Of a stretch of 64,000 bases of DNA, positions 53,927-56,420 are shown one piece after another. Origin of the DNA: Prevotella sp. (GTDB lineage Bacteria; Bacteroidota; Bacteroidia; Bacteroidales; Bacteroidaceae); assembly GCA_017617615.1 (NCBI GenBank), contig JAFZVV010000019.1, positions 57,082 to 121,081 of the forward strand. Direction: 5' to 3'. Made by a program: the position numbers and the translations under genes. Each line of letters begins with the position of its first letter. The stretch's first letter is position 1. Below the pieces are notes generated by a model that worked only from the letters and a program-made list of their open reading frames with translations, was not told the DNA's origin and made no database searches.

Positions 53927-54075
53927 CGAATAGTTTTAGGCTCCTGCAAATATTTGGGATAAACTGCATGAAAATGTGAGGAATGGTAAGCGTGCGAAAC
54001 TGAAGTCTTATCCGAAAAATCTAAGTGTATGATTATTTTTTTTCAGATACGCAAAAACAATGCGTTGTGGCATTC

Positions 54076-54083
54076 TACTTTTG
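54076..54083 (+). promoter_or_regulatory. Probable promoter -7 box of the Y-RNA array
   Basis: TACTTTTG, expected start of transcription near 54090. No convincing -33 box. No other TAnnTTTG box was found between here and the Ro60 gene, and the RNA genes are separated by only 2-10 bases, so one long processed transcript is the simplest reading. The leader starts with a stable hairpin GTTGGAC-TTC-GTCCGAC at 54101-54117. Confidence 0.5.
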
Positions 54084-54128
54084 CATCCGGATAATGAAAA
54101 GTGTTGGACTTCGTCCGACCCTTTCTAC

Positions 54129-54190
54129 GCCATGGCAATGCTCAAGCAAGCTTGGCATTGCTCATCTAGCTTAACGAAAGCGTTCTTTGA
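54129..54190 (+). repeat. Covarying hairpin unit in the leader of the Y-RNA array
   Basis: CGCCATGGCAATGC, a loop containing AAGCAAGCTTG, then GGCATTGCTCATCTAGC and TTAACGAAAGCGTTC. The stem GCAATGC/GCATTGC corresponds to GCAGAGC/GCTCTGC in the unit at 42550-42605. A second mini-hairpin AACG-AAAG-CGTT ends the unit. Confidence 0.7.
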
Positions 54191-54202
54191 ATGAATGAAA
54201 TA

Positions 54203-54326
54203 GGGTGGTGATTGCCGTAGCGAGGGGTTACTTCGTTTGCTAAACCGTAGAAGGTGCAGGAAACCGTTCCTGATAACCAACGTTGGGCTTTCCCAAAAGT
54301 CTCCTTGTGCCCGTAGCATCCCACCT
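54203..54326 (+). ncRNA. Y-RNA-like RNA 1 of the Ro60 locus
   Basis: Lower helix GGUGG (54204-54208)/CCACC (54321-54325), continued as GAU/AUC; a bulged U, then GC/GC (54214-54215 with 54316-54317); internal loop CGUA on the 5' side and GCCCGUA on the 3' side; upper helix GCGAGGGG (54220-54227)/CUCCUUGU (54301-54308). The apical part starts UUACUUCG, and contains two strong hairpins, CAGGAA-ACCG-UUCCUG and UUGGG-CUUU-CCCAA. The same plan recurs in four more RNAs downstream. Expected to bind the Ro60 protein through the helix near the internal loop; ends are approximate. Confidence 0.8.
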
Positions 54327-54336
54327 CTTAAATATC

Positions 54337-54439
54337 AGTGAGTGCTGTAGGAAAGAATTGCATCGTGTTCTATTTCGTCATCAGAAGATTCTACTGATCA
54401 GAACGGATAGAGGGTTTCCTTTCCGACTATTGCCTCACT
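54337..54439 (+). ncRNA. Y-RNA-like RNA 2 of the Ro60 locus
   Basis: Lower helix AGUGAG/CUCACU (54337-54342 with 54434-54439), bulged U, GC/GC, internal loop UGUA on the 5' side and GACUAUU on the 3' side, and upper helix GGAAAG/CUUUCC (54350-54355 with 54419-54424). The apical part has AUCAG/CUGAU and an AGG/CCU hairpin. Its apical sequence is the least like the others and lacks UACUUC. Only 10 bases separate it from RNA 1. Confidence 0.8.
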
Positions 54440-54446
54440 AATCATT

Positions 54447-54580
54447 AGCAAGTGCCGTAGATAAGACTTACTTCGCCTGTCACGCCGAAGACGCAAGTTC
54501 GAATCCTGCCATGGGAGAAATTCCATGTAGTTCAGTTGGTAGAATGTCGTAAAAAGAGTCTTTTCGCCTGTCGCCTTGCT
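54447..54580 (+). ncRNA. Y-RNA-like RNA 3 with a circularly permuted tRNA module (YrlA-like)
   Basis: Lower helix AGCAAG/CUUGCU (54447-54452 with 54575-54580), bulged U, GC/GC, internal loop CGUA/GCCUGUC, upper helix GAUAAGACU/AGUCUUUUC (54460-54468 with 54557-54565, one U-U mismatch). After a hairpin CUUCG/CGAAG the apex is a tRNA read in permuted order: T-arm GCAAG-UUCGAAU-CCUGC (54493-54509), acceptor helix CAUGGGA/UUCCAUG closed by GAAA (54510-54527), U8-A9 (54528-54529) and D-arm GUUC-AGUUGGUA-GAAU (54530-54545) with G18-G19. The anticodon arm is replaced by the Y stem. This is the arrangement described for bacterial YrlA RNAs, whose tRNA-like part is a substrate for tRNA-modifying enzymes. 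Confidence 0.9.
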
Positions 54581-54593
54581 TTTCATATTTCAC

Positions 54594-54667
54594 AGCGGAG
54601 TGGAGCAGATGGTCAGCTTGCAAGTTTCATAAGCTTGAGGTCGCAGGTTCGAGTCCTGTCTCCGCCA
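54594..54667 (+). tRNA. tRNA-Met (CAU), initiator-type with unusual 1:72 and anticodon stem
   Basis: A complete cloverleaf of 74 bases without CCA: acceptor AGCGGAG/CUCCGCC, U8-G9, D-arm GAGC/GCUU with G18-G19, anticodon arm CAAGU-UUCAUAA-GCUUG (anticodon CAU at 54626-54630 region), variable loop AGGUC, T-arm GCAGG-UUCGAGU-CCUGU, discriminator A73. Initiator-type traits are the 74-base length, the A11-U24 pair and the lack of a Watson-Crick 1:72 pair. Here that pair is A1 and C72, not the usual C1 and A72, and the three G-C pairs of the initiator anticodon stem are missing. It lies between Y-RNA-like RNAs 3 and 4; RNase P and RNase Z cuts would free its neighbours. Whether it is charged and used is open. 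Confidence 0.85.
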
Positions 54668-54673
54668 CTAAAA

Positions 54674-54758
54674 CAGGATGCCGTAGGATGACGGATACTC
54701 CGCGCTCTGAAGGGGATTAATGTGCGTACCCCGACCGTCTGTCCGCCTATTGCTCCTG
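54674..54758 (+). ncRNA. Y-RNA-like RNA 4 of the Ro60 locus
   Basis: Lower helix CAGGA/UCCUG (54674-54678 with 54754-54758), bulged U, GC/GC, internal loop CGUA/GCCUAUU, upper helix GGAUGACGG/CCGUC-U-GUCC (54686-54694 with 54735-54744, one bulged U). The apical loop begins AUACUCCG and holds a GGGG/CCCC hairpin (AAGGGGAUUAAUGUGCGUACCCC). It is the shortest of the five, starting 7 bases after the tRNA. Confidence 0.8.
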
Positions 54759-54764
54759 CCCCAT

Positions 54765-54862
54765 AAACGGTTGCCGTAGTGAAGAGATACTTCATTGGCT
54801 ATGTAAAAGCGTTCGATTGGTAATCGAGAGATTCGAAGCTCTTCACGCCTGTAGCACCGTTT
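54765..54862 (+). ncRNA. Y-RNA-like RNA 5, closest to the Ro60 gene
   Basis: Lower helix AAACGGU/ACCGUUU (54765-54771 with 54856-54862), bulged U, GC/GC, internal loop CGUA/GCCUGUA, and upper helix GUGAAGAG/CUCUUCAC (54779-54786 with 54839-54846). The apex starts AUACUUCA, and contains UCGAUUGGUAAUCGA, a D-arm-like hairpin with GG, and AGAUUCGAAGCU, which recalls a T-loop. The 3' strand ends in TTTTT, so the last helix may also end transcription in part. The Ro60 ATG follows 28 bases downstream. Confidence 0.82.
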
Positions 54863-54890
54863 TTAAAAGAGGTTTAACTATAAAGATGTA

Positions 54891-56420
54891 ATGAAGATGA
54901 ACTGGAATTCGAAGTTGAAAGAACAAATGACCGTGACGAATCACGAAGGAGCCAAGGCTTACGCCATGACCCCCGAACTGGAGTTGTACACCGCCGTGGT
55001 GACAGCATCGCTGAGCGACCTGTGCTACGAGAAGCAGGACGCGCGTGTAGGGCGCATCGCCGCCCTGGTGAAAAAGGTGTCTCCGGAGTTCGTCGCACGG
55101 CTCGCCGTCTATGCCCGCACCCAGATGCATCTCCGCAGCATTCCCTTGCTGTTGCTGGTGGAGTTGGCCAAGGTGCATAATGGTGACGACCTCGTGGCCC
55201 GCGCCGTGGAGAAGACCGTCCTTCGTGCCGATGAGATCATGGAGTTGCTGATGTGCTATCAGTGGCGCAACCCCTCCGCTGACCCACGAAAGAAACTCGG
55301 TAAGCTCTCGCGCCAGATACAGAATGGTCTGCAGCGTGCGTTCAACCGCTTCGACGAGTACCAGTTCGCCAAGTATGACCGTGACAACCTCGAAGTGAAA
55401 CTCCGCGACGCGCTCTTCCTTGTCCACCCTAAGGCCAAGGATGAGCAACAGCGGGCATTGTTCGACAAGATTGTCAACCGCCAGTTGGAGACACCCTATA
55501 CCTGGGAGACCGAGTTGTCGGCCCTTGGTCAGCAGCAGTTCGCCTCCGCTGAGGCAAAGGCGGCCGCCTTCTGCCAGAAGTGGGAGGAGTTGGTACGTAG
55601 TGGCAAGTTGGGCTATATGGCCTTGATGCGCAACCTGCGCAATATGCTTCAGGCCGACGTGTCGTCCAGCGACATTCAGCTTGTCGCCGACCGCCTCTCT
55701 GATGCCGCTCAGGTGGTCAAGTCAAAGCAGTTGCCCTTCCGTTATCTCTCGGCTTACCGTGAGGTCGAGCAAGTCAACAGCACCAGCACCTCCGCATTGA
55801 TGTCGGCTCTGGAAACTGCTGTCCGTCACTCTGCTGCCAACATCGAAGGTTTCGATGGGAACACCCGTGTGCTCATCGCCTCGGATGTCAGTGGTTCCAT
55901 GTGGAAAAATGTCAGTGCCAAGAGCTCCGTGCGCCTGTTCGACATCGGACTGTTGCTTTCGATGCTGCTCAAAAGCCACTGCAAGCAGGTCATCGCCGGT
56001 ATCTTCGGTAGCGAATGGAGCGTGGTCAATTTGCCAGCCGACAATGTCTTGATGGCAACCCGTCAGTTGGAGAAACTTGAGGGCTCTGTCGGCTACAGCA
56101 CCAACGGTTACAAGGTCGTTGACTGGCTCATCGAGCAAAACCAGGTGTTGGACAAGGTGATGTTGTTCACCGACATGCAGATGTGGAACAGCACAGGATA
56201 CAACGCCAGTTTCGAGAATTCATGGCGCCGTTATAAGCAGATGGCACCCCATGCTAAACTCTACTTGTTCGACCTCGCTGGCTATGGTCAATTGCCCTTG
56301 CGTCTCGCCGAGCCCGATGTCTATCTGATTGCCGGCTGGAGCGACCGTGTATTTGATGTCCTCTCGGCCGTTGACAAGGGTGCCGATGCCCTCAGCGTCA
56401 TCAACGGCATTGAGGTTTGA
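54891..56420 (+). CDS. Ro60/TROVE-domain RNA-binding protein
   Basis: Ro60 orthologues form a ring of HEAT-like repeats that binds Y RNAs on its outside and the 3' ends of misfolded RNAs in its cavity; in bacteria they can tether to polynucleotide phosphorylase. The 509 residues comprise the TROVE domain (about 1-300; YTAVVTASLSDLCYEKQDAR, FVARLAVYARTQMHLRSIPLLLLVELAK, GKLGYMALMRNLRNMLQ) and a C-terminal vWA-like domain (about 320-509) with a MIDAS DVSGSM motif in VLIASDVSGSMWKN and LFTDMQMW. It lies directly after five Y-RNA-like genes, so it is very probably their partner. No rtcB/rtcA neighbour, unlike in Salmonella. Confidence 0.95.
   Translation: MKMNWNSKLKEQMTVTNHEGAKAYAMTPELELYTAVVTASLSDLCYEKQDARVGRIAALVKKVSPEFVARLAVYARTQMHLRSIPLLLLVELAKVHNGDDLVARAVEKTVLRADEIMELLMCYQWRNPSADPRKKLGKLSRQIQNGLQRAFNRFDEYQFAKYDRDNLEVKLRDALFLVHPKAKDEQQRALFDKIVNRQLETPYTWETELSALGQQQFASAEAKAAAFCQKWEELVRSGKLGYMALMRNLRNMLQADVSSSDIQLVADRLSDAAQVVKSKQLPFRYLSAYREVEQVNSTSTSALMSALETAVRHSAANIEGFDGNTRVLIASDVSGSMWKNVSAKSSVRLFDIGLLLSMLLKSHCKQVIAGIFGSEWSVVNLPADNVLMATRQLEKLEGSVGYSTNGYKVVDWLIEQNQVLDKVMLFTDMQMWNSTGYNASFENSWRRYKQMAPHAKLYLFDLAGYGQLPLRLAEPDVYLIAGWSDRVFDVLSAVDKGADALSVINGIEV

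Follow-up and report, generated by a model that had tools for sequence, protein, structure and literature searches.

Five Y-RNA-like elements and an embedded tRNA upstream of a Ro60-like gene in Prevotella: a candidate multi-adapter unit of RNA quality control

This report concerns a TROVE/Ro60 gene, and the array of small-RNA elements upstream of it, in a 64,000-nucleotide (nt) stretch of DNA from Prevotella sp. (contig JAFZVV010000019.1, positions 57,082 to 121,081 of the forward strand; hereafter, the window). The gene, ro60 (window positions 54891..56420, + strand), is an open frame of 509 amino acids, and its product matches two solved TROVE protein sequences (E 8e-24). It comprises a TROVE domain followed by a von Willebrand A domain (Pfam TROVE, 94.6 bits with a cut-off of 23; vWA_Ro60, 29.2 bits with a cut-off of 27.7). 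Against the NCBIfam Rsr equivalog the protein scores 26.5 bits, where the cut-off is 900; we therefore name it TROVE/Ro60-like and do not assert orthology to Rsr. The host of the stretch is Bacteroidales-like, and the nearest Ro60 relatives come from rumen Prevotellaceae assemblies, at about 90% identity over the whole protein; four partial or multi-piece matches reach at most 91-96%.

Five Y-RNA-like elements precede ro60 head to tail on the + strand, at 54205..54325 (element 1), 54335..54441 (element 2), 54445..54582 (element 3), 54671..54761 (element 4) and 54764..54863 (element 5). The last of these ends 27 nt before ro60, and a tRNA-Met(CAU) gene (54594..54667, + strand) lies between elements 3 and 4. 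The descriptor described below, ARAGORN and Pfam thus place the five elements, the tRNA and the Ro60 gene where the original prediction had put them. Adjacent elements are separated by 2-9 nt beyond their 8-nt stem flanks, except across the tRNA slot, which measures 88 nt. All five follow one plan: an outer stem, a bulged U, GC, a YGUA / GYCUGUN internal loop followed by GC, and an inner (second) helix. They have two features expected of bacterial Y RNAs, in that their 5' and 3' ends form a basal stem with a conserved bulge and internal loop, and they are encoded beside a Ro60 gene. The shared basal stem and internal loop would constitute the Ro60 binding site.

The elements were recognized with a descriptor that examines stems and loops around GCYGTA sites and accepts scores of at least 35. 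The + strand of the window has 26 such sites, and those that pass are exactly the five elements; on the - strand, one of 26 passes. A similar picture emerges from 51 relatives' loci (designated by L numbers), two of which (L042 and L051) have no usable upstream part and were left out. Upstream of ro60, 142 of 164 sites pass (67.5 kb), as against 17 of 197 on the whole minus strand of the same loci (469 kb), which served as a control, and 30 of 203 on the remaining + strand (402 kb). Of these last 30, ten are scattered; the other 20, found in eight loci no more than 3.3 kb downstream of ro60, appear to be genuine elements. Elements without GCYGTA escape the descriptor, as in L029, where the covariance model found them.

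Because the descriptor itself selects for stems, the pairing test was repeated with ends chosen by sequence only. The 3' end was picked by a sequence motif alone in 99 distinct elements, and partners were reassigned in 1000 shuffles. With their own partners, 91.8% of outer-stem positions pair, compared to 57.1% (sd 1.9) when reassigned; for the inner helix, the values are 87.3% and 66.9%. When partners are instead drawn from a different element within the locus, pairing is 51.9% in the outer stem and 63.4% in the inner helix. The bulged base is U in all 99 elements. A covariation score over 47 joined cores is 0.703, compared to 0.246 for shuffled alignments (none of 500 as high) and 0.14-0.23 for slid structures; these cores were stem-selected, and the partner test is thus the cleaner one. 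The minus-strand and reassigned-partner controls rule out a chance origin of the five elements.

A covariance model, R1, was built from 47 of 66 non-redundant cores, all five window cores included; 11 cores (L040, L044, L046) were held out and eight others were removed by eye. Outside its training set, R1 detects L040, L046 and L044 (Hymenobacter edaphi, where it finds one of six descriptor elements). The original prediction had named a covariance search finding the motif unlinked to TROVE genes as a refutation; in 13 whole genomes the linkage held: the 23 matches with E <= 1e-4, spread over 11 genomes, are all at a TROVE gene. Twenty-two coincide by coordinates with TROVE loci already in the relatives' set, and the 23rd is the Y element of an additional, diverged TROVE gene (L091:956-2359), which it precedes by about 200 nt; this second gene belongs to the same assembly as L003, L006 and L020. 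Eleven weaker matches (E 0.05-0.98), some away from TROVE, were left uncounted; among the 13 genomes, that of L032 gave no match and the Hymenobacter genome one at E = 0.18 only. These searches scored at most 150 candidates per genome, and at most 19 in a 295-genome sample of the order, where R1 matches two genomes, both among the three with TROVE. In 48 loci (450 kb), 90 of 90 matches with E <= 0.01 are on the + strand, many of them being training sequences. Further, in 17 loci from a sample of the bacterial class, none used in training, R1 alone finds elements in eight (12 matches, E <= 3e-4), all on the ro60 strand and downstream of ro60.

The elements fall into classes that recur by array position, each with its own top. 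The original prediction had noted that members differ in their apical parts; across relatives, these differences prove to be conserved and position-specific. Class 3, to which element 3 belongs, has the outer stem GCAAG and presents a T arm, a closed acceptor hairpin and a D arm, which is the order of the tRNA mimic in YrlA. The class-3 alignment (A3) has 98.4% of cells paired and 18 double-changed pairs; it took 23 of 38 class-3 elements, leaving out, among others, four short ones (L009, L010, L023) and L030, whose class-3 stem bears a class-2-like top. Element 3 of the window keeps 31 of the 32 class-3 pairs, with one T-stem mismatch. Since R1 misses it as a whole, its support comes from the descriptor and the class alignment, along with a weak YrlA match.

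Class 2 has the outer stem GUGAG and a complete tRNA-like cloverleaf opened in the D loop, with an anticodon arm (5 bp, 7-nt loop), a T arm and a closed acceptor hairpin: a four-arm tRNA mimic. Its alignment (A2), with 98.7% of cells paired and 16 double-changed pairs (0 of 500 shuffles as high), took 14 of 17 elements; the window's element 2 and that of L043 lack the module, and L003 is a near-duplicate. L001:4264-4399 and the 13 other elements of A2 are Y elements enclosing such an opened cloverleaf. The anticodon loop reads U33-N-N-G36-G37 in 12 of the 14, with seven different anticodons; L016 and L038 differ. Element 2 of the window (R1 E=9e-10, as a training sequence) and L043 retain the class-2 stem without the cloverleaf top that A2 shows in relatives. 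ARAGORN calls of tRNA-Leu (L001, L003, L004, L013, L048) and tRNA-Arg (L018) overlap class-2 Y elements and were excluded from the tRNA counts.

Classes 1, 4 and 5 carry tops of their own. Element 1 (class 1; descriptor, R1 E=1.2e-9, alignment A5) has three apical hairpins, element 4 (class 4; R1 E=1.9e-6, alignment A6) also bears hairpins, and element 5 (class 5; R1 E=1.2e-13, alignment A4) has a short variable loop; all three were training sequences of R1. The alignments took 9 of 19 class-1 elements plus one unclassed, 15 of 27 class-4 and 22 of 28 class-5 elements. Automatic consensus folding missed both the GC pairs and the inner helix of class 4, and for class 5 it recovered the core only. 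Three fused matches of more than 185 nt (L017, L043, L049) do not enter the counts of ro60 distance, anticodon loops, tRNAs and neighbours.

The tRNA between elements 3 and 4 scores 57.3 bits with the Rfam tRNA model. An initiator tRNA is marked by a CAU anticodon, a mismatched 1-72 pair, and three loop-adjacent G-C pairs in the anticodon stem. The window tRNA has CAU and an A1 x C72 mismatch; its anticodon stem, CAAGU/GCUUG, keeps one of the three G-C pairs. It resembles initiator-like tRNAs located outside the arrays, which are present in all six relatives' genomes searched, and departs from them at base 1, base 72, the D loop and the anticodon stem. The genomic versions have AGG/CCU (two of three pairs) in five genomes and GGG/CCC in the sixth. 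The original designation "initiator-type" thus stands as a statement of descent, the gene being a diverged copy of an initiator tRNA, and falls short for the anticodon stem, which is weaker than in the relatives' initiators. The 1-72 mismatch is not conserved either: these bases pair in the array tRNAs of L012, L018 and L035.

The occupant of the slot between class 3 and class 4 changes among relatives. It may be tRNA-Met, tRNA-Thr (L027) or tRNA-Ser (L016, whose next gap holds a tRNA-Lys). As judged by eye, L025 holds a tRNA-like piece with a shrunken anticodon arm and retained acceptor and T arms, and in L006 and L013 the tRNA is broken by an insert of about 77 nt. The slot is empty in L009, L010, L017, L030 and L034 (the last by eye). 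Elsewhere in arrays, L031-L033 have tRNA-Met and tRNA-Lys with encoded CCA, L037 has tRNA-Met, and L043 contains, as judged by eye, a tRNA-like piece that lacks the anticodon arm. Including the window, ARAGORN calls a tRNA in 16 of 38 loci with at least two upstream elements. Judged from sequence, this turnover fits a processing signal better than a working initiator. Because the acceptor and T arms can persist in the slot as the anticodon arm shrinks, or one tRNA can take the place of another, we read the tRNA as a probable signal for RNase P and RNase Z, whose recognition the retained arms would serve.

Upstream of the array is a palindrome, TACGCA-N7-TGCGT (54048..54065, + strand), whose occurrence in relatives' loci suggests that it is probably the operator of the array promoter: of 50 loci, 23 have a TACGCA..TGCG[TG] palindrome in the 1.4 kb that precede ro60, and there are three occurrences in 469,059 other bases. 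It is followed by TACTTTTG (54076..54083, + strand), a TAnnTTTG box located by leader alignment and coordinates, which we take to be the Bacteroidota-type -7 promoter box. Its first base, 54076, is the point at which the original prediction began. The spacing from palindrome to box, start to start, is 28 nt in the window and in 15 of the 23 loci, and 29 nt in two. The leader also contains GTTCTTTGAATGA (54182..54194, + strand), presumably a boxA-like element. In relatives, the [GA]TTCTTTGA box occurs within 1.4 kb upstream in 16 of 50 loci, compared to 14 times in 938,118 strand-bases elsewhere; a GTTCTTTGA-type box is also present in the 16S leader of one of the two genomes with a 16S match (nine genomes searched). 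A palindromic leader hairpin at 54134-54163, present once in the window, lies in a stretch absent from nine aligned relatives' leaders. A AAGCAAGC stretch resembling this hairpin occurs in the tRNA-breaking insert of L006 and L013.

The flanks of the relatives' loci frequently encode RNA-repair enzymes (22 of 49 loci: RtcB in 16, RlaP in 13, Thg1 in 5) or a WYL regulator (19 loci), with one or the other in 27 of 49. In the class sample, an enzyme is found in 11 of 17 loci, a WYL gene in nine, and either in 14. The contigs of metagenome-assembled genomes are often cut, and all such counts are lower bounds. L018 has a divergent operon of WYL, RlaP, Thg1 and an AAA_33 protein, presumably a kinase; these four are also present in L001, where the RlaP match is split into more than one piece. 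PADLOC has no family for Ro60, RlaP, Thg1 or the kinase, and the WYL protein matches its CRISPR-associated WYL models. In the class loci, CGCA-N7-TGCG occurs within 500 nt upstream of ro60 in 10 of 17, namely in all nine with a WYL gene and in one of the eight without; there are 16 copies in 8,483 upstream bases, compared to 5 in 197,818 elsewhere. Two IMG/VR contigs filed as viral (L085, L086) contain Y elements, a tRNA, ro60 and RtcB.

TROVE is present in 18 of 395 genomes of the class, the centre of the sample (G001) included; the other 17 constitute the class-sample loci. Downstream sequence is available for 16 of these; in the 2 kb that follow ro60, the descriptor finds one or more elements in 14 loci and two or more in 13. 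The earlier statement that Ro60 loci usually have one or two Y RNAs does not seem to describe this bacterial class, where, by the descriptor, several look like the rule. Five sites pass the descriptor on the class-sample minus strand, all in L148, L150 and L153, where R1 finds nothing. Same-strand tRNAs accompany nine of the 16 loci, 88 in total, with none on the other strand. L143, L154, L155, L156 and L157 have same-strand tRNA arrays (7 to 23 called) beside Ro60, with Y elements between some of them, and in the genome of L155 (G605) 28 of 61 tRNA matches fall in the 6 kb after ro60. The L155 array also encodes a 276-residue protein without a Pfam match. These arrays mark the window as a small member of a locus type that reaches a near-complete second set of tRNAs.

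Some phage and plasmid records also have TROVE genes with tRNAs close by. Among TROVE-matching records, we inspected three of 96 from phages and one of 77 from plasmids. There are tRNAs near TROVE in the crAss-like phages csAssE-Sib (L087) and cr111_1 (L089) and in a Halobaculum plasmid (L088); none was called in CcrPW (L090). R1 found no element in any of the four (E up to 5), although a distant form of Y RNA may still exist there. The descriptor found none in L087 and L089; in L088 and L090 its matches (34-43) are scattered, and one falls within the TROVE gene.

Taken together, these findings make it likely that the locus is one stable-RNA operon, composed of promoter, leader, five Y RNAs, tRNA and ro60, and that it forms a multi-adapter RNA quality-control unit within an RNA-repair regulon. 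We propose that a single transcript would run from the array promoter through ro60 and be cut into separate RNAs, with the tRNA serving as an internal signal for RNase P and RNase Z to cut elements 3 and 4 apart. Ro60 would hold each Y RNA by the common stem and internal loop, leaving each to present its own top, and perhaps to choose its own clients: element 3 a YrlA-type tRNA mimic, elements 1 and 4 hairpins, and element 5 a short variable loop. The unit would belong to an RNA-repair regulon under a shared operator, of which the window copy would retain the operator without repair genes in the window. We suggest this membership because the same operator precedes WYL-adjacent Ro60 genes and because many relatives have RtcB, RlaP, Thg1, kinase or ligase genes near ro60.

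Several results weigh against this interpretation. The folding energies of the single elements are unexceptional (z -1.8 to +0.35). The class-3 fold of element 3, at -22.3 kcal/mol, is about 11 kcal/mol worse than its best fold (-33.5 kcal/mol), such that the YrlA arm order, evident in A3, is not the lowest-energy structure of the window's copy. R1 detects four of the five window elements and misses element 3, even though all five were training sequences. At gathering thresholds, Rfam finds nothing but the tRNA in the window. The YrlA/Y-RNA scan that had been suggested as a check thus recovered the tRNA and none of the Y families, with YrlA (RF02553) reaching 24.2 bits on element 3 where 69 are needed; by the same scan, a T-box or other described leader was rejected, snoZ223 and BjrC68 falling far below their cut-offs. 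The order-sample evidence for linkage is modest: the value of 7e-5 counts the chosen centre, and its exclusion leaves one match among two TROVE genomes of 294 (P about 0.007). Twenty-two of the 38 multi-element loci have no ARAGORN tRNA, and a tRNA is therefore not required for array processing; moreover, its position could separate elements 3 and 4 only, the other junctions having none. Finally, neither repair genes nor a WYL gene were found in the 64-kb window (tblastn, nine queries). For this reason, and because the palindrome tracks the WYL-bearing class loci, control of the window array by a WYL protein is a prediction.

Some of these facts could be read otherwise. The tRNA might be an ordinary working one that landed in the array by chance and has no role in its processing or function. 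ARAGORN and Rfam both score it as a tRNA, tRNA-free Y-RNA arrays exist, and diverse tRNAs adjoin ro60 in more distant loci (23 called in L155). However, in the Prevotella-like clade this tRNA departs from the genomic initiator-like tRNA at base 1, base 72 and the anticodon stem, the slot is common to many loci while its occupant changes, and that of L025 was retained with a shrunken anticodon arm (by eye). We regard this reading of the tRNA as unlikely. Another possibility is that the array acts in cis as a leader: its folds, and that of element 5 in particular, would regulate how ro60 is translated or transcribed, as might happen if Ro60 bound its own leader. The constancy of placement speaks for this notion: counting the window, 44 loci have an upstream element, and in 35 of them the distance from the end of the final core to the beginning of the ro60 match is 15-44 nt. 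Yet other members of the bacterial class have these elements downstream of ro60, and five different conserved tops exceed the needs of a leader switch; regulation in cis is, in our estimation, rather improbable as the purpose of the array.

Still less probable, we believe, is that the window locus derives from a larger island of Ro60, Y RNA, tRNA and repair genes and is now in decay. The repair genes of many relatives are indeed absent from the window, element 2 has lost its tRNA-like top, and the tRNA is altered. But the palindrome, the -7 box, the five cores and the open 509-residue Ro60 frame have all been kept, and elements 1, 3, 4 and 5 retain the features of their classes. A functioning multi-adapter operon remains the reading that we prefer.

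A broader and more tentative idea, which we hold to be possible but doubtful, is that the Ro60 loci of this bacterial class are operator-controlled islands for the repair and replacement of tRNAs. They would combine end-repair enzymes, spare tRNAs (up to a near-complete second set) and a set of Y RNAs with differently permuted tRNA mimics, one of which has a complete anticodon arm (loop U33-N-N-G36-G37, variable anticodons). The mimics, all held by Ro60, could serve anticodon nucleases and repair enzymes as decoys or as docking adapters. Several conserved adapter classes on one Ro60, together with tRNA mimics that open at two positions, a co-transcribed tRNA and the operator in common with RNA-repair loci, would link this protein to tRNA damage throughout a bacterial class. 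The operator, the regulator family, the processing signal and the anticodon-bearing mimics are testable parts of such a link.

Pairs of Ro60 and Y RNA, and Ro60 within RNA-repair operons, are already known (PMC7790460, PMC8394870). In Deinococcus radiodurans, the basal stem of the Y RNA tethers Rsr while the other end engages a partner (PMC8394870, PMC7790460). The resulting Rsr / Y RNA / PNPase complex (RYPER) resembles the present system in pairing a Ro60-family protein with a Y RNA; as far as RYPER is described in those accounts, position-specific array classes and a tRNA between Y elements are features of the window only. The Salmonella rsr-yrlBA-rtcBA operon likewise joins Ro60 to a YrlA-type tRNA mimic in an RNA-repair setting (PMC7790460); many relatives here have RtcB or other repair genes near ro60. 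By the same account, the Salmonella operon has two Y RNAs, located after rsr, and is under RtcR control. In contrast, the window has five Y elements upstream, an embedded tRNA, a palindrome common to WYL-bearing loci, and no repair genes. Element 3 shares the arm order of YrlA (RF02553), and copies in L025 and L001 reach 45.6 and 36.2 bits, but the window and five loci scanned fall below the gathering score of 69 bits, and the class-2 mimic differs from YrlA in having an anticodon arm and in opening in the D loop.

Archaeal tRNA gene clusters include a TROVE gene in 20 of 29 cases (PMC6333295), and some jumbo phages have TROVE together with repair enzymes (PMC7824862). The archaeal clusters are alike in associating a TROVE gene with tRNAs; they differ in that Y RNA goes unmentioned in what that source relates of them, whereas here Y elements are interspersed, and the window has a single tRNA. 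Our literature search retrieved no report of a five-member Y RNA array with a tRNA, of a D-loop-opened mimic or of a shared operator; the main surveys of bacterial Y RNAs lay outside this search, and an earlier description is possible. Ro60/Y RNA loci themselves are known, and what appears to be new is the array with its embedded tRNA, the mimic opened in the D loop, and the operator that these loci seem to share.

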